DNA of 33,581 bases from a virus. Within the stretch, counting starts at the first letter, position 1, and every line of letters starts with the position of its first letter. The stretch spans positions 1-33,581 of IMG/VR virus record IMGVR_UViG_3300021379_000092; one strand, 5' to 3'. Positions 1,031 to 29,754 of the stretch are shown in pieces. The notes under the pieces are model-generated. The model was not told the DNA's origin. It saw only the letters and a list, made by a program, of their open reading frames with translations, and did not search any database. A program made the position numbers and the translations under genes.

Positions 1031-1175
1031 TCTGCTTACTCCTTTTTAATTCTATAGATTTATTTTTACAAATTTGTAGTCTTTCCTTTATTAGATCATT
1101 CATTTTTTGCAACCAATAAAGCTCTTCATTAATTTCTTTTATAATTCTTGTTTTATTTTTTATATCTTCAATCAT
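1020..1175 (-). CDS. Small coiled-coil protein of unknown function
   Basis: A 51-aa, highly charged and probably fully helical protein (IKEINEELYWLQKMNDLIKERL), suited to a short coiled coil. The ATG at 1175 lies inside the last codons of the PP-loop gene, with GGAG about 11 nt upstream; an upstream start at 1202 would add 9 hydrophobic residues read from the overlapping gene and is less likely. It overlaps the DUF3310 start by 11 bp. No family recognised. Confidence 0.55.
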   Translation of the reverse strand: MIEDIKNKTRIIKEINEELYWLQKMNDLIKERLQICKNKSIELKRSKQNEH

Positions 1176-2028
1176 GACAGAAACAACTCCTACCATCATC
1201 ATCTAACAAATCTATTTTGTTTTGCTGTGACAATTCTAATAAATCTATATAGGATATTTTTGATTGAAAAGTAGCTTTATAATTAGAGCCATCTGATTTT
1301 TTTTTAACTGCAATTAAATCTTCCATATCAATCCACCATTTAGCTAATTCTGGCTTTTCTTTAATAATTTGCACTTTAGTTTGTGTACCTTTTAGAAAAC
1401 ATAAATCACAATTTCCCACTAAAGTTTTGCCACCATGATTGGGTAGCTTTAAATCAAAATTGCTTTTTTTCCAAAATTCAGCAACATCATTTACAGTTTT
1501 TTTATCATCAAACAATGGTGCATAGTTAAACCATTTATTTTTGCCTGTTTGATTAGCCCTTCTCTGATTAGCAACTCTTCTTGGTTCGTCATATCTTAAA
1601 CCAACTACATTTGACCACTCCTTATAACCAAATGATCTCATGTGTCTATTAATTACTGCCATTTTTAATTCTGCTGTACAGATACGCATAACAGGATTGG
1701 GTAGCATATTTTTTCTTTTTATTAATTGTTTAAAAGGCTCTCCATTTCTACTTGCAGTTTCAAAATTAACAAGTTTATTTCTATAAATAGGTTTTTCTTC
1801 ATATATTTCTAACTCTAACCAAGTTATTGGTATATCCCAACGATCTGAAACTTTTTGTATAAATTCATAGGTTTCTTCTACTTCTTTACCTGTGTTTGCA
1901 AAAACTACATGATAATCATTTGGTATAGAGCCATCATGTGCATCTAAAATTTTTTTAAGCATGTACGCTGAAGTTCTACCACCACTAAAACTAATTAAAG
2001 CAGGGCTTGGAACTATATATGGATTCAT
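1168..2028 (-). CDS. PP-loop ATPase, PAPS reductase-like, with cysteine cluster
   Basis: A 286-aa member of the adenine nucleotide alpha-hydrolase (PP-loop) superfamily. The nucleotide loop SGGRTS is at residues 15-20, and VVFANTGKEVEET (about 41-53) is the usual second strand-loop. Five cysteines lie at 117, 207, 210, 282 and 284; the CDLC pair and C-terminal CFC resemble iron-sulfur or zinc ligands seen in sulfurtransferase relatives such as DndC. Such enzymes activate a substrate by adenylation or act on PAPS. Phage copies are usually labelled PAPS reductase, but sulfate assimilation, tRNA thiolation or DNA sulfur modification cannot be told apart here. The coding region looks richer in A/T runs than its neighbours, a possible sign of separate acquisition. 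It overlaps the upstream gene by 4 bp. Confidence 0.85.
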   Translation of the reverse strand: MNPYIVPSPALISFSGGRTSAYMLKKILDAHDGSIPNDYHVVFANTGKEVEETYEFIQKVSDRWDIPITWLELEIYEEKPIYRNKLVNFETASRNGEPFKQLIKRKNMLPNPVMRICTAELKMAVINRHMRSFGYKEWSNVVGLRYDEPRRVANQRRANQTGKNKWFNYAPLFDDKKTVNDVAEFWKKSNFDLKLPNHGGKTLVGNCDLCFLKGTQTKVQIIKEKPELAKWWIDMEDLIAVKKKSDGSNYKATFQSKISYIDLLELSQQNKIDLLDDDGRSCFCHD

Positions 2029-2929: not shown

Positions 2930-4843
2930 TCACTTATATAGACCACTAAACTCCACCTTATTTCTGTATTCATTAGCCTGAAACAAATTATTATTTGCAT
3001 CATGATTAACGATATCTAATTCCACCATCTCTTTTGTATATTGATCTATATTGGGTCGCTTCATTGCATTACCTGCTTTTGTTTTACAAACACCAAATAG
3101 ATCACCAACATTAAACCAGTAGTCCTCTAGATTACCACCTTCTGCTGACTGCTTTTCTAGTGCTAATTGTCTTAAAGCTCTATCAACTTCTGCATGTGTT
3201 GACCTCATCTTGATATTGCCTTTTGGTTTATCAGTCACAATGTCTAGATATCCAGATGTCATGTTATAGCCTAGTAAATCCACCTCATTAAACTTAAAGT
3301 CAAGATTAGCCATGCCCTGACCATCCTTGTTTAATGTTTGGCTCAAGGTGACGTACATATCACCACCTATATCTTCTCTAGCTACCTGAAATTCATAGTC
3401 CATTGATGCACCCAAGACTGAACTACCTCTTTGCCTTCCAGAAGCGTTATGTCCTGTGTGATGCACTATGACTACACAGGCTTTATATTTATGAATTATG
3501 TTATCTAACCTACTGATAAACATTGTCATGTCCTCTGTGCTGTTCTCTGAGCCTGCTCCAAAGTTTCTATTCAAAGTATCAACAATAATGCATCCAATCT
3601 CACCTTCTCTTGCACAGATAATATCTAGCTCATCTATGAGCTTTTGATACTCATCTTCATCAAGAATTCTTGTACCCCTATTAGATAAATACAGTGGTGC
3701 ATCTATTAGACTTCTGCCCACTTGTTCTAATGCACTTAATCTTCTGACAGTTCCACGCTTACCTTCACCCACAAGCATGACCACAGGTGCTTTTGTAGCT
3801 TCATGACCAAAGTATTCTGCACCTCTAGCTATCGCAACTGCCATATCTAATGCAACAAAAGACTTGCCCTCTTTTGGCTTACCAAATATTGCAACTAAAC
3901 TTTCACGTTCAAAGATGTCCTTAATCAACCACTCTGGCTCTGTAATCTGACCTAACACCTGATCTGCACGTTCAAAGTAAAGTGTGCCTGCAGGTCTATG
4001 CATAGGATTGTTCTTAATGTAATCCACAAGGTCTGCATGATCTGCAAACAACCCACGTTCTACTGCTTCGTGCATATCTTCTTTTTCTTGCAAGCCTTCT
4101 GGTGGTTTGCATACGCTGACCAATGACCCATGCTTCTGTAAGTGCCTTGAGATGTCATCTGCAAAGCCAAAACCTGCTTCATCATTATCTGGGAATATAA
4201 GCACTTCCCTGCCATACAGAGGTGACCAATCAGTCTTTTGCCACCCTTTACAACCCCCATGATGGCAAGCTACTTGATGCTGATAAATTTGCTCACTTGC
4301 CACTGCTGCTTTTTCACCCTCTACAAGCAACACAGGCTCTGTTTCAGAACGTTTTGGTGTTAAGTATAGGGGTAGCTCTCCAGAAGGTCTTTTGCAGACC
4401 CAGAAGCCATCACTCTGTTTACAGTAAGGAGCATATTTCTGATAGCTTCTGTTGTGACCCTCTGGAAAGCGTAAAACGATAAAGTTGTCTGCATATTTGA
4501 TTTTGATCTCTGCTTCCTTCCAGAGCTTCGCCATCTCATCTCTGGACAACAGTGGGGTAGTTTTAGGGGAACGTATGTTTACTACATTTTTAAGAGAATC
4601 TACCCCACCACTGAAACCAAATCTTTTAAGCACAGCAGCAATGTCTTGATTATGTTCAACCAGAAGTCCATGCACTCCAAAACCTTTATCAGCTTCAAAG
4701 TCATAGAACTGCCCAGTCTCTTTGTTTAGACAAACACTTCCTTTGTTTCCCCATCTAATCTCTGTAGAGGATTCTTGTTTTGGTTCGCCTAACAGTTCAA
4801 GACCTACTGCTCTAGCAATAGATGCCCATTCCTCGTTAGTCAT
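2930..4843 (-). CDS. Primase-helicase (TOPRIM plus RepA-like ATPase)
   Basis: A 637-aa fusion. Residues about 1-80 resemble a primase N-terminal domain (TGQFYDFEADKGFGVHGLL) but lack the CHC2-type zinc cysteines. A TOPRIM domain follows at about 168-260, with the metal-binding glutamate in LLVEGEK (E175) and the acidic motif FPDNDEAG (217-224). The C-terminal part is a RecA-fold ATPase like RepA helicases: Walker A GKPKEGKS (321-328), Walker B IIVD (419-422) and a VHH motif (460-462). It should unwind DNA and may prime synthesis at the phage fork. It lies between the SSB-like gene and the heptamer array, as expected for a replication module. No polymerase gene is present. Confidence 0.88.
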   Translation of the reverse strand: MTNEEWASIARAVGLELLGEPKQESSTEIRWGNKGSVCLNKETGQFYDFEADKGFGVHGLLVEHNQDIAAVLKRFGFSGGVDSLKNVVNIRSPKTTPLLSRDEMAKLWKEAEIKIKYADNFIVLRFPEGHNRSYQKYAPYCKQSDGFWVCKRPSGELPLYLTPKRSETEPVLLVEGEKAAVASEQIYQHQVACHHGGCKGWQKTDWSPLYGREVLIFPDNDEAGFGFADDISRHLQKHGSLVSVCKPPEGLQEKEDMHEAVERGLFADHADLVDYIKNNPMHRPAGTLYFERADQVLGQITEPEWLIKDIFERESLVAIFGKPKEGKSFVALDMAVAIARGAEYFGHEATKAPVVMLVGEGKRGTVRRLSALEQVGRSLIDAPLYLSNRGTRILDEDEYQKLIDELDIICAREGEIGCIIVDTLNRNFGAGSENSTEDMTMFISRLDNIIHKYKACVVIVHHTGHNASGRQRGSSVLGASMDYEFQVAREDIGGDMYVTLSQTLNKDGQGMANLDFKFNEVDLLGYNMTSGYLDIVTDKPKGNIKMRSTHAEVDRALRQLALEKQSAEGGNLEDYWFNVGDLFGVCKTKAGNAMKRPNIDQYTKEMVELDIVNHDANNNLFQANEYRNKVEFSGLYK

Positions 4844-23213: not shown

Positions 23214-23684
23214 CTTCCTTTTCAGCTTTTATTTCAAAATAAGCTATCCATCCTTGATATTCTTGGACACTAATTTGCTGCAATTCAAGCAAAGTTTTAT
23301 TTAACTTTTCTGCTAGTGCATATTGTGAATATAAATTAGTATCCTTTATTAGTTTTTTTTAACTTCCTCTACTGGCTCTTGACCTGTTATTTCTTGAGCA
23401 ACCCTCATTAAAACTTCCCTATCTACAGAATTTAATAATGCTTGTTTATCTTCAAGACTAAATAACTTATCACCATTAGAATCAAGTGCTTTATAAATTA
23501 ATACATAAGCCATCATTGTCAGATCATCCTCTCTACTCATTTTATAGAGCTTAGAGGTTTCAGCTAACGTTAATGGCTTGCTGTATATCATTAAAGGTTC
23601 ATCATCTGAACCCCATTCTGGAACTTTAATTACTTTTACATCTTGCTCTGCAAAATGCTTTTTAGCGTTTTCAATAGCCTTCAT
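23203..23684 (-). CDS. Tail assembly chaperone GT fusion by -1 frameshift
   Basis: The zero-frame protein (23349-23684) shifts at 23352-23358 and continues 49 residues, starting LIKDTNLYSQYALAEKL and ending in a tail with EYQGWIAYFEIKAEK, before TAA at 23203-23205. The WIAYFE motif is typical of the T part of tail assembly chaperones. The fusion is 160 aa. It overlaps the tape measure start by 11 bp. Long-tailed phages use this ratio-controlled fusion to recruit tail tube subunits to the tape measure, so this is the gpG-T equivalent. The minor product is inferred, not observed. Confidence 0.8.
23349..23684 (-). CDS. Tail assembly chaperone, short form (gpG-like)
   Basis: A 111-aa acidic, helical protein (MKAIENAKKHFAEQD ... 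EITGQEPVEEVKKN). Size, helical content and location between major tail protein and tape measure match the G chaperone of lambda-like tails. The gene ends right after a run of eight A that forms the slippery site. One base separates it from the major tail protein stop. Confidence 0.82.
   Translation of the reverse strand: MKAIENAKKHFAEQDVKVIKVPEWGSDDEPLMIYSKPLTLAETSKLYKMSREDDLTMMAYVLIYKALDSNGDKLFSLEDKQALLNSVDREVLMRVAQEITGQEPVEEVKKN
23352..23358 (-). promoter_or_regulatory. Programmed -1 frameshift slippery heptamer A AAA AAC
   Basis: Read on the minus strand in the zero frame, the codons are GTT AAA AAA AAC TAA, so the heptamer A AAA AAC sits exactly in the X XXY YYZ register right before the stop. 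A one-base slip back leads into a 49-codon open frame. The zero-frame stop is the very next codon. Confidence 0.85.
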
Positions 23685-25682: not shown

Positions 25683-28256
25683 TTAGCCATCATTAGACAC
25701 ACAGAAGCTAACAGCATGTCTTACTGCTACATCTACAGTTTGTAGAGCAACAATTCTAATAGAACCTGTATTAGACAAGCTGTAAGGGTCAACTGTGATA
25801 TCAAGTGAACCATACATACCAATTAATAGATCAGAGAAGTTACCAAAATAGAAATCACCTGAAGTGACTTGATTTGATCTAACAACTCCATAACCATTCA
25901 TTCTGCCATCTGGCTCAACTACAAACTGACCACTACCTGAATCTTTAGTTACAGTTTTAAGTGTGCCATAGTCTGCAGGCTTACAGATATATGAAAGGTT
26001 GCCAATCAATGCATTGTCATTTGCAACTTCTGATTCCATTGCAATGATTTCAGCATAAGTTGGATTAGCAGCAGCAAATGTTGTGCTGTTAATACCTGAA
26101 GTATTTTTAATACCTGTAGGCTGACCAGAAGAACCTGAACCTGCCAATGCACCTAGATCAATAGCTGTTGCAATTGATTGTGTTAGGTCATCTCTGATTA
26201 GGTTTTCAATATCTAATGAGCTTTGTTGTAGAAGTAATCTAGTAGCATCTGTATGAGCACCAATTACTTTTGGTGACATAGTTACACTGCCTGATGTGAA
26301 CTCTGATTCAGAAGAAGCTGAACCTTCTGTAGCAATCCAACCTGCACTTGAACCTGCGGTTTTCTTAGGAATTACAACAGAACCTTGCAGTCCTCTTAGC
26401 ATAGTTGCACCTGCAGCCATAACTGAAGATGAATTTCTAAGTACGTCTATAAAGTCCCCACCTTTAAAATCCTGTGGAATTAAAGTTGAGTCATCTGATG
26501 AGTTCAAATCCCTTTGACCCCATGTTGCAAGAACGTCTGCAGGAAGCATGATGCCTTGTGCAGTTGTTCCATTTGCTCTAGCTGCTTCTTCACTACATTC
26601 TAGTTCAAAGGCAGCATCTTCTTGTGCTTTTCTGTCAGCAGGATTAGCTAAAGCACGAATGGCTTTCACTACGCTAAATCTTTTGACTTCTTGCTTAGTC
26701 ATACCAATATCTGATGGTGTTTCTAATGGTTGATCGTTAGCAATGTTCTCTAAGAGGACACCTCTAAACTCTTCCACAGAAATACCTTCTGATATGGCTT
26801 TGTCAGCTAAATCTCTTTTGTTGTGTCTGACTGCTAAATCAATAATCTCTTTTGAGTTTCTTTTGAATTCAGCTTTTGCATCTTCAACAGTTTTGGATTT
26901 AACTTCTTCAAGATTAATTTCTTGTTTTTCGTTTTCCATATTTCTCACCTGTTTGTGAATTAAGTTAGTTTCAGAACGCCCAACTCCAACTGATTTGGAT
27001 TGATCTGCAGGAACTGCAACTGAACTTACCTCTAAAGGTGTCCAACTAGCCCTGTAGTATTCCTCATCATTGTCATCTTTGACACGTTCCATCTTATTTA
27101 TTTTGTAGCCTACTGATATATTCATTCTTATACCATCAACTACATCCTCAAAAACTTCACGAGCAAGTGCAGATTTACCAAATCTCACAACTGCAATTGT
27201 CCTCTTAGCAGTCTCATCAAGTTTAAACTCTTCGATTACACCAATTTGTTTGGTCATATCATGATCTAATAAAAAAGGTGCTGTTCCACTTTTCATGAAC
27301 TCCATGTCCACTTCATTTTCTTTGTGTCCTAACACTTCTTTTCCAAAACTTCTGTCTACTGGCATTTCAGATGATACACCCACTCTGACTCTTCTATTTT
27401 CTTCATCAATGTGATCTGCCCTTGATAGGTCAATAGTTCTGTATCTAATAAGATCAACTACCTTCCTTTCATCTTCATCTTCATGCATTGAATTCTCTGC
27501 ATCAGTCGCTTCAACTGGTTCAGATTCTTCAATTTCATCCTCATGATGTTTTGAAAATTCTATAACTACAGAATCTTCTTTTTCATCAATATTTAGGATA
27601 TGTCTTTCATCAACTTTATCCATGCTTTTCTCCTCGTTTTTCGTTGATTGTGGATGTCCTTCTGGTAGCAAGTCAGTATCATGCTTACCACTCCTAAATC
27701 TACCATTTCGCAAGGCATAAAGAAAGCTATTAATTCTAGCTGCTGCCCATTGCTCTGGTGAACTTACATTGGGTCTTACAGATGCAGGATTAGTTTTATA
27801 TGCACCTATACCACGTTCATACACTTTTGATAATGTTCCTACTGTTGTTCTTTTAGAAGCAACATCACCAACTTCTTCATTATGTTCTTCAACTTTGTTC
27901 TTAATCATTTCTAGGGCTTTACCTGATACAGCTCTCTCATCTTCTTTTTTTAGTCGTTCCACTATTTGTCTTGACCAACTATAACCTGCATCTCCACCCC
28001 ATAATGCCCATGCAATTCTGCCATTAGAAGGGTATCCATCTTCACCCTGACTAAATCCTTCAGCTTCTTTATCTACTTCATGTCTTGAGAAGAAGCTGTA
28101 CATTCTTTTGACTGTTTCTTCTGATAGATTCTCTCCTGCTACAATCTGTCTTGCTCTTACAGCACCAACTCTTGTACCACCTCTACCATGTTCTTCACGC
28201 CAATCAAGACCTCTTTGAGCTTCTGCCTTCATGCCTGCTGTTGGCTTAAAGCTCAT
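25683..28256 (-). CDS. Fused prohead protease - major capsid protein
   Basis: An 857-aa protein in five parts. Residues about 1-100 hold a basic/Trp-rich domain (RGLDWREEHGRGGTRVGAVR, later IAWALWGGDAGYSWS). Residues about 145-205 hold a second domain (LSKVYERGIGAYKTN, WAAARINSFL). About 265-430 is an HK97-type (S78) prohead protease, with catalytic candidates H332 in LLDHD and S381 in MNISVGY. About 440-560 is a charged helical scaffold-like delta region. About 570-857 is an HK97-fold capsid protein (SSSVMAAGATMLR, WIATEGSASSESEF, ATAIDLGALAGSG). HK97 has these as separate genes. Strong internal ribosome-binding sites lie before codons 212 and 440. The ATG at 28256 is preferred to GTG codons at 28274 and 28271. 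Confidence 0.85.
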   Translation of the reverse strand: MSFKPTAGMKAEAQRGLDWREEHGRGGTRVGAVRARQIVAGENLSEETVKRMYSFFSRHEVDKEAEGFSQGEDGYPSNGRIAWALWGGDAGYSWSRQIVERLKKEDERAVSGKALEMIKNKVEEHNEEVGDVASKRTTVGTLSKVYERGIGAYKTNPASVRPNVSSPEQWAAARINSFLYALRNGRFRSGKHDTDLLPEGHPQSTKNEEKSMDKVDERHILNIDEKEDSVVIEFSKHHEDEIEESEPVEATDAENSMHEDEDERKVVDLIRYRTIDLSRADHIDEENRRVRVGVSSEMPVDRSFGKEVLGHKENEVDMEFMKSGTAPFLLDHDMTKQIGVIEEFKLDETAKRTIAVVRFGKSALAREVFEDVVDGIRMNISVGYKINKMERVKDDNDEEYYRASWTPLEVSSVAVPADQSKSVGVGRSETNLIHKQVRNMENEKQEINLEEVKSKTVEDAKAEFKRNSKEIIDLAVRHNKRDLADKAISEGISVEEFRGVLLENIANDQPLETPSDIGMTKQEVKRFSVVKAIRALANPADRKAQEDAAFELECSEEAARANGTTAQGIMLPADVLATWGQRDLNSSDDSTLIPQDFKGGDFIDVLRNSSSVMAAGATMLRGLQGSVVIPKKTAGSSAGWIATEGSASSESEFTSGSVTMSPKVIGAHTDATRLLLQQSSLDIENLIRDDLTQSIATAIDLGALAGSGSSGQPTGIKNTSGINSTTFAAANPTYAEIIAMESEVANDNALIGNLSYICKPADYGTLKTVTKDSGSGQFVVEPDGRMNGYGVVRSNQVTSGDFYFGNFSDLLIGMYGSLDITVDPYSLSNTGSIRIVALQTVDVAVRHAVSFCVSNDG
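26937..26950 (-). promoter_or_regulatory. Internal ribosome-binding site before the capsid part
   Basis: AGGTGAG (26944-26950) lies 4 nt (AGGTG, 6 nt) before an in-frame ATG at 26937-26939 (codon 440). It falls where the protease ends and the scaffold/capsid part begins. A start here gives a 418-aa product, the normal length of an HK97-type delta-plus-capsid protein. Confidence 0.6.
27621..27635 (-). promoter_or_regulatory. Internal ribosome-binding site before the protease part
   Basis: On the minus strand GAGGAG (27630-27635) lies 6 nt before an in-frame ATG at 27621-27623 (codon 212). It falls between the N-terminal domains and the protease and is better than the Shine-Dalgarno of the annotated start. 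A start here gives a 646-aa protease-capsid product. Confidence 0.6.
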
Positions 28257-29754
28257 CTTCTTCTTCTCCACCACTGATGACAGCTTCTACTGGTAATTTA
28301 GTTCCAAAAGGTTGATAAGCTAATTCAATACCATATTGTTTTGCTAACTCTATCTCCTTTTGATGTTGTTCAAAAAGTTCTTCTGTGTCTCTACCATAAG
28401 ATGCACAGATATCTGAATAAGTGACAGTTCCATTTTGTAAACCAATTACATTAGATTGCATTTCTTTAAGTGGGTCTATCCAAGCAAAACTTCTAGGTAT
28501 AAAAGTTACTGAACTTGCAAATTTATCTACCTTAGATACTGGCAATTTAATGTAATTAGTTGACACTGCCATTTCTAACCAAGACTTAAAGACTGGTTCA
28601 ATAAAATGTTCAATGACAAATTGTTGATATATCTGAAACATGCTTCTGTCCTCTAAAGCACCTTGCCTGATAGAGCTGTAGTTTACAGATGTAAGATCAT
28701 TAGATAATGAATGATAAGAAATGTTAAGTCCAGATGCTATGCTTCTTAAAACTGATTTAGTAAATGCATCAAAAGCTGACGTTGGATGTTGTGGGTCAAA
28801 TGCTTTAAAGTCCATACCTGCAGGTAATTGTTCAAACACACCTGCTTGTGCTGTCATGGTTGGACTAAATGAATCTTCATATTCACCATCACCAACATAA
28901 CCATCACCATCTGGACTAATAAAGAACCCTTGTTTACTAGCTGATACTCTAGCACTTACTACCTCTGCTTCAAGATAACCATTAAGTTGTTTGACTGTAG
29001 GCATTGCTGTTGCAATTAAAGAAACACCTCTGGTCTGTTCTGCTCTTTGTGGCAAGAAGGCATGAATGATCTCTTCTGCAGGAACTCTTATGTGCTGATT
29101 CTCATTAAGATAAGTTCTCTCATAAGGATGATGCTTGTATAAATGATAAGCAACTGGCTTATCAAACTCATCTACCTCAACACCCATTTTGATTCTGTTG
29201 CCATTCTGTTTGTAGTAATCATTTTTATCTTCATCTAAATGATCTGCTTCTAAGAACTGCAATTTAAAACCAAATGGTGAATTTTTGTCTTTTACTTTTC
29301 TAATAAGAACTTCACCATCTCTGCAAAGTGATTCTATGAATATTTTTTGACAATCTAAAAATGACAATCTGCCATTGGTGGTACAGTTCCCAATCTTTGT
29401 CCATTCCTTCCATGCTTCCTCAATGAGCAGGTTAGCTCTTAGGTCTAGCTTTCCCTTATTAACTGGGTCATCTAGTCGTGCCTTAGAGCTAACTCTTATG
29501 CCATGCTTACCGATAACATTAGACACCATCAGATTTAAGTATCTAGCTATGTAGCTATCGTTTCTTGCTAACTCTCTCGCCCTATCTCTTAGGACTCTTA
29601 TGTTATCTTTAATTTCAGCATCAGCACTTGTAGATGTAGTTAAGAAGTCAGAGAACAATCTGCCTGCATTAGCACCTGTATAACTTCTTCTATAAGCTCT
29701 ACGTTTTTTTGTTTGTACCTCTTTTCTGTTAAATATGTTGTTATACCATGCCAT
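28246..29754 (-). CDS. Portal protein (lambda gpB family)
   Basis: A 502-aa protein. The N-terminal part (RRSYTGANAGRLFSDF, RELARNDSYIARYLNLMVSN) and the RDGEVLIRKV and SVNYSSIRQGALEDR segments are hallmarks of lambda-type portals. It forms the 12-fold ring at the packaging vertex, docking terminase and then the connector. It overlaps the fused protease-capsid gene by 11 bp and lies 2 bp after the joining-protein gene. Length is normal for the family. Confidence 0.9.
   Translation of the reverse strand: MAWYNNIFNRKEVQTKKRRAYRRSYTGANAGRLFSDFLTTSTSADAEIKDNIRVLRDRARELARNDSYIARYLNLMVSNVIGKHGIRVSSKARLDDPVNKGKLDLRANLLIEEAWKEWTKIGNCTTNGRLSFLDCQKIFIESLCRDGEVLIRKVKDKNSPFGFKLQFLEADHLDEDKNDYYKQNGNRIKMGVEVDEFDKPVAYHLYKHHPYERTYLNENQHIRVPAEEIIHAFLPQRAEQTRGVSLIATAMPTVKQLNGYLEAEVVSARVSASKQGFFISPDGDGYVGDGEYEDSFSPTMTAQAGVFEQLPAGMDFKAFDPQHPTSAFDAFTKSVLRSIASGLNISYHSLSNDLTSVNYSSIRQGALEDRSMFQIYQQFVIEHFIEPVFKSWLEMAVSTNYIKLPVSKVDKFASSVTFIPRSFAWIDPLKEMQSNVIGLQNGTVTYSDICASYGRDTEELFEQHQKEIELAKQYGIELAYQPFGTKLPVEAVISGGEEEDEL

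Follow-up and report, generated by a model that had tools for sequence, protein, structure and literature searches.

Conserved candidate internal starts at the domain borders of a fused protease-capsid frame in a marine phage

In phages lambda and Mu, C/Nu3 and I/Z, respectively, are protease genes with an in-frame internal start for the scaffold. In HK97, the protease (gp4) is followed by a delta segment and capsid fold (delta-capsid protein gp5), an order that agrees with the marine phage frame described here, but these are separate genes with separate starts and there is no protease-capsid fusion. Pseudomonas phage PaMx73 was reported as a putative Mu-like protease/scaffold case (PMC4378225). 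Protease-capsid fusions, on the other hand, have long been annotated across many groups of phages: entries named "major capsid and protease fusion" include Lactococcus c2, Arthrobacter AM/AU/AN, Gordonia/Rhodococcus small phages, Rhodobacter RcC, Paracoccus prophages and thaumarchaeal proviruses (PMC5513430, PMC8601537, PMC6536676, PMC6563490), all sharing with the marine phage the presence of protease and capsid in one frame. Dinoroseobacter phage R4C (Cronusvirus; PDB 8gta) likewise combines a fused protease-capsid gene with a homologous HK97-fold capsid protein, although it lacks the N-terminal modules A and B introduced below; its T=7 capsid contains 415 capsid copies, and the word protease is absent from the text of the structure paper (PMC10276861). 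Closest to our case are the Roseobacter phages CRP-811, CRP-821/822/823/831 and CRP-406, which have the same gene order and the fused frame (identity of 45-54%, covering 88-100% of the query). The paper on these phages labels the frame just major capsid protein and mentions neither protease nor fusion (PMC12629253). The authors describing EricDab noted an ATG before the protease domain only, and discussed a holin-like segment fused before protease-capsid (PMC9671378). We observed hydrophobic holin-like N-terminal segments ahead of the protease-capsid frame in Rhodococcus RRH1 (L285, 4439-6424) and Gordonia Rahul (L396, 421-2490) as well. In the literature searched, with subscription journals mostly outside the search, we came across no report of an internal start for the capsid within fused genes, no published demonstration of translation from the internal starts considered here, and no account of how fused phages avoid one protease per capsid subunit.

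The window, i.e. the whole stretch of DNA analysed, is a virus record of 33,581 bases with 36% G+C, in which portal, terminase, head-tail and tail genes flank the fused frame. Since its nearest cultured relatives are roseophages (e.g. CRP-811, 54% identity), the host is likely a marine alphaproteobacterium. The fused frame lies on the minus strand at 28256-25683 and comprises 857 codons from its ATG, plus the stop codon, with a predicted mass of 94.1 kDa; begun at an upstream GTG (28274) it would have 863 codons. The region upstream of the primary start (GTGGTGGAGAAGAAGAAG; 28257-28274, minus strand) is situated within the 3' part of the portal gene and has an SD energy of -6.6. ORF analysis together with Pfam and PHROGs matches confirmed the preliminary description of a single 857-codon frame with two N-terminal modules, an HK97-type protease, a predicted scaffold-like segment and the capsid protein, arranged as module A, DUF5824, linker, prohead protease, delta and capsid. 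Two further features of the window were observed. A tail-assembly-chaperone-like gene (23349-23684, minus strand) ends in GAA GTT AAA AAA AAC TAA, with a slippery site near 23352-23360; a -1 slip on A AAA AAC there would lead into another open frame (KKLIKDTNLYSQ...), in the manner of lambda G/GT. A phosphoadenosine phosphosulfate reductase-like gene (phrog_424; 1168-2028, minus strand) is likely an auxiliary metabolic gene.

All parts of the fused frame given in the following are on the minus strand. Module A (phrog_2859; residues 5-110, 27927-28244) is mobile among phage head proteins, and module B is a DUF5824 profile match (residues 129-180, 27717-27872); both are modelled as all-helical, without a significant match to PDB folds. 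The prohead protease domain (Peptidase_S78; residues 281-427, 26976-27416) was recognised by profile and AlphaFold2 model. PF04586 scored 26.2 bits against a curated cut-off of 21 when residues 212-439 were scanned as a fragment (match at 324-429), and was unreported in a scan of the whole 857-residue protein. His332 and Ser381, invariant in an alignment of 50 relatives, are candidate catalytic residues. A match to phrog_617 ("major head protein") spans residues 271-855, and Phage_capsid (PF05065) matches residues 592-853 with an E-value of 1e-40. The predicted mature capsid protein (about residues 590-857, 25686-26489) aligns to the modelled chain of R4C. In the AlphaFold2 model from protease to capsid (mean pLDDT 71.8; the alignments for structure prediction contained viral-contig rows only), the protease folds at residues 281-427, followed by a low-confidence stretch (about 428-453), helices forming a delta/scaffold-like segment (residues 449-562, 26571-26912), a second, disordered linker and the HK97-fold capsid domain, which matches 8gta and HK97 Prohead structures.

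Both internal ATGs singled out in the preliminary description are located in low-confidence linkers between predicted domains, Met440 in the middle of the stretch following the protease. The predicted internal start 1 (Met212, 27623-27621; protease-delta-capsid product of 646 aa) is preceded by GAGGAG (27635-27630) with a spacer of 6 nt, and the predicted internal start 2 (Met440, 26939-26937; delta-capsid product of 418 aa) by AGGTGAG (26950-26944) with a spacer of 4 nt. Pairing with the 16S anti-SD tail amounts to -8.7 kcal/mol at site 1 and -8.4 kcal/mol at site 2, compared with a mean of -3.9 for 33 predicted gene starts of this genome, most of which are weaker. The claim of strong SD sequences at domain borders was thus borne out by coordinates, pairing energies and predicted linkers. 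Among all 1460 ATGs of the window, only 2.2-2.8% match the strength of the two internal sites. Site 2 is not the top one among the in-frame ATGs of the window, another reaching -9.4; site 1 stands out in the window alone when a shorter anti-SD is used. As site 2 is less striking within the window alone, the case rests on conservation. Promoter-like sites within the fused gene were not in excess (4 found versus 8.7 expected), and an internal promoter was rejected on these numbers.

The border starts are under selection at the nucleotide level. Residues before Met440 vary (QVRN, KVKI, EVKL, KEIT, RSDP) while an AGGAG-like stretch and the ATG are kept, the methionine being conserved in at least 90% of 50 aligned relatives. 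The linker is highly variable among relatives save for SD and ATG, which fits the earlier impression that ETNLIHKQVRN resembles translated intergenic DNA. With the ATG of strongest border-region SD taken as site 2, a choice that inflates all figures of this sentence, the best border ATG of 98 non-redundant sequences had a mean of -7.6 kcal/mol versus -2.7 for 1567 other in-frame ATGs and -3.4 expected for the best of the same number; E/K/Q codons were G-ending in 72 of 74 cases four codons before ATG2 (29.2 expected), in 24 of 25 four codons before ATG1 (5.0 expected) and in 23 of 25 three codons before it (4.8 expected), and G-endings were avoided 9-12 codons upstream of ATG2 (5 of 139 versus 52.9 expected). 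It should be noted that this set, like the 63-sequence set used below, consists of sequences related by descent, and counts are not independent events. One could argue that the codon bias is a by-product of a conserved protein motif (K/Q-E-x-x-M) serving as protease cleavage or assembly signal, as KE or similar is frequent before Met440. We regard this as highly improbable: the residues are those variable ones listed above, and whichever residue is encoded, its G-ending synonym is preferred at the frequency just stated.

An SD-based choice of the ATG is avoided in the synonymous-null test, the conserved-column test and the SD-blind figures for the bacterial-genome set. With the methionine chosen SD-blind, site 2 reached -7.53 versus a synonymous null of -3.73 and was better in 65 of 66 sequences; site 1 reached -7.70 versus -3.55 and was better in 38 of 39 scorable non-redundant relatives. 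Local mRNA structure is weaker at site 2 than at a median of 92% of gene positions (75% for site 1), and the residue following the site-2 methionine is T, S or E in 63 of 66 cases. Loci from bacterial genomes repeat the SD signal more weakly (above null in 62 of 80; Wilcoxon p 2e-6) and the low-structure signal strongly (median percentile 0.98). These features bear on the idea that the motifs are SD-like pause sites, at which the ribosome slows between domains to allow co-translational folding but does not initiate. Their location at domain borders would suit such a role, but pausing needs neither an ATG at a fixed short distance nor an initiation-like drop in structure nor start-like second residues, and with all three present this explanation appears very unlikely. 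The preliminary description had named relatives lacking the internal SD sequences as evidence that would speak against internal starts. Such relatives are exceptions: cyanophages S-CBS1 and S-CBS3 have the fusion but no convincing SD where protease and capsid meet, and the SD is weak in several bacterial-genome loci, e.g. those of Acinetobacter. In most relatives, as in nested in-frame genes, an internal start has its own SD and is conserved at the nucleotide level.

The best answer to the objection that long genes hold SD-like ATGs anyway is a control on conserved columns. Among ATG columns of the fused gene shared by 60% or more of 63 diverse relatives, a strong mean SD was found only at the gene start (-8.6) and at Met440 (-8.0; 62 of 63); the next conserved ATG column had -5.25. 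No comparable internal site was seen in conserved ATG columns of the portal gene, where nothing but the region of the portal start is conspicuous (-6.65, as against -4.3 for the next), or of TerL (14 sequences; strongest column -4.85). Site 2 is the firm one of the two internal sites and likely functional; site 1 is probably functional.

If the frame of the window had arisen by recent loss of a stop codon or by a sequencing or assembly error joining separate genes, as the preliminary description had offered as an alternative, relatives should tell, and a comparison of split versus fused genes had been proposed there. We assembled 278 loci (window, viral contigs and phages), of which 274 were scorable, i.e. 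protease and capsid could both be placed. Protease and capsid share one frame in 274 of 274, and also in 80 of 80 bacterial-genome loci; the latter were collected with protease-only search patterns, while some patterns used for the viral relatives span the internal ATGs, as degenerate codons. A linker resembling translated intergenic DNA would be in line with stop loss, as would a split frame in three loci (L039, L237 and CRP-823, i.e. L083), each due to a single in-frame stop or frameshift. L039 has GAA changed to TAA at 1344 relative to the near-identical L038, CRP-823 an additional T within a run of Ts near 3700 relative to CRP-821, and L237 an in-frame stop at 3868. The splits look like single lesions or errors, two of them because near-identical sequences are intact, and we did not use the three loci as natural proof of separate capsid expression. 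The breaks fall upstream of ATG2, and the capsid part could still come from ATG2. With every scorable relative fused, isolated and sequenced phages included, a stop loss or assembly error specific to this genome is excluded, and joining by accident has a next to negligible probability.

Upstream of the protease, composition differs among relatives. In place of module B, relatives have a PYPNEHAARL or a Hva1_TUDOR module, or nothing, so that A, DUF5824, PYPNEHAARL and TUDOR modules precede the protease in differing combinations (e.g. the N-terminal regions of L027, L047, L082 and L086). The A and B modules match predicted viral proteins bearing annotations such as prohead protease, XkdF and portal, many of them head-associated; in uncultured phages, the module types are found joined to several head proteins. 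Site 1 is located where the conserved protease-side sequence (RHILNV) begins, and thereby marks where a swappable cassette meets the core gene. Initiation at site 1 may allow the phage to produce protease-capsid lacking the cassette. Where relatives carry other N-terminal modules, site 1 is missing or differs, and conservation supports it within the clade bearing the present module arrangement only. In the CRP-811-like clade (L200, L204, L223, L235 and L277), module A is followed, ahead of the next module, by an ATG with a motif of GAGGAT type, which suggests further internal starts.

Candidate border starts were also seen in fused genes of other lineages, of which we checked a few hand-picked genomes (c2, R4C, Gordonia, Arthrobacter, Curtobacterium and others); those checked carry a border ATG with an SD-like motif. 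In the 629-codon gene of R4C, the strongest in-frame SD-ATG is Met189 at the protease-capsid border; scanning viral contigs with the R4C protein yielded no relatives. In Lactococcus c2, Met131 is the strongest internal ATG; it directly precedes a coiled-coil-like segment and is kept in close relatives. In GMA5, Rahul, Schiebs, Root and Noely, a border ATG with a G-rich motif coincides with a minimum of structure (percentile 0.95-1.00), while the SD-like motif is weak in Whytu and moderate in RRH1. This suggests that border starts are general among fused phages. We lean slightly towards the broader proposal that the "fusion" genes of tailed phages are generally nested genes, several unrelated lineages having kept or re-gained a capsid start at the border, with the marine group adding a second start and thus three graded products.

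For the marine phage, we consider it likely that the frame is a set of nested genes, in which the border start supplies delta-capsid in excess over protease-bearing subunits. According to this proposal, initiation at 28256 would give the full-length protein of 94 kDa, initiation at site 1 a protease-delta-capsid protein of about 71 kDa, and initiation at site 2, within the disordered linker between protease and delta, a delta-capsid protein of about 44 kDa. As the three products share the capsid protein as their C-terminal part, they would co-assemble in one procapsid, with the short form making up most of the subunits and a minority bringing the protease and N-terminal modules inside. The protease would then cut at the delta-capsid border and strip everything N-terminal, leaving mature subunits of about 28 kDa. 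Ribosome use of the sites, product ratios and co-assembly are predicted here from sequence; the cleavage site at the delta-capsid border is proposed by analogy with R4C and HK97, and proteolytic removal of the predicted delta segment by analogy with R4C only.

A true polyprotein, made as the full-length form only and cleaved by its fused protease, with the SD-like stretches as relics or chance, would also agree with the universal fusion in this family and with removal of N-terminal parts in related systems (the mature c2 protein begins at codon 206 according to its record note, and the modelled R4C chain has 268 of 629 residues). Relics would decay, however, while here the SD is kept by codon choice as adjacent residues change. 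Furthermore, 415 full-length copies would hardly fit into a T=7 procapsid: at solid protein density and an assumed inner radius of 17-21 nm, 415 full N-terminal parts (66 kDa) fill 0.87-1.63 of the interior, whereas those of the short form fill 0.22-0.41. This is a plausibility argument, because the radius is that of HK97 proheads (17-21 nm). It also has to be weighed against the fact that in HK97-like phages 1:1 fusions of scaffold and capsid can work, and large N-terminal fusions are possible in principle. Taken with the codon evidence, we think a polyprotein unlikely and prefer the nested genes. A conserved capsid-specific internal start would explain how fused phages avoid one protease per capsid subunit. 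If true, the annotated product of fusion genes would not be the main product, and the capsid protein would join the nested short forms that bring a protease into the prohead.

The preliminary description had proposed nested products by internal initiation, with capsid in excess as in lambda C/Nu3, and this reading gains support from the conservation of SD and ATG, strong at site 2 and confined to the clade at site 1. In contrast to lambda C/Nu3 and Mu I/Z, the short product in the marine phage would consist of delta and capsid protein with no separate scaffold, and there are two internal starts. A short product that is a scaffold distinct from the capsid, as defines the C/Nu3 and I/Z type, was not found in this frame, whose predicted short form includes the capsid itself. 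Because the short form is capsid protein, the frame is not a strict member of that type, but it would work like C/Nu3 and I/Z: one frame, an internal SD and start, a protease-bearing long form, a presumably abundant short form and a common C-terminal part, by which the protease would be carried into the prohead.
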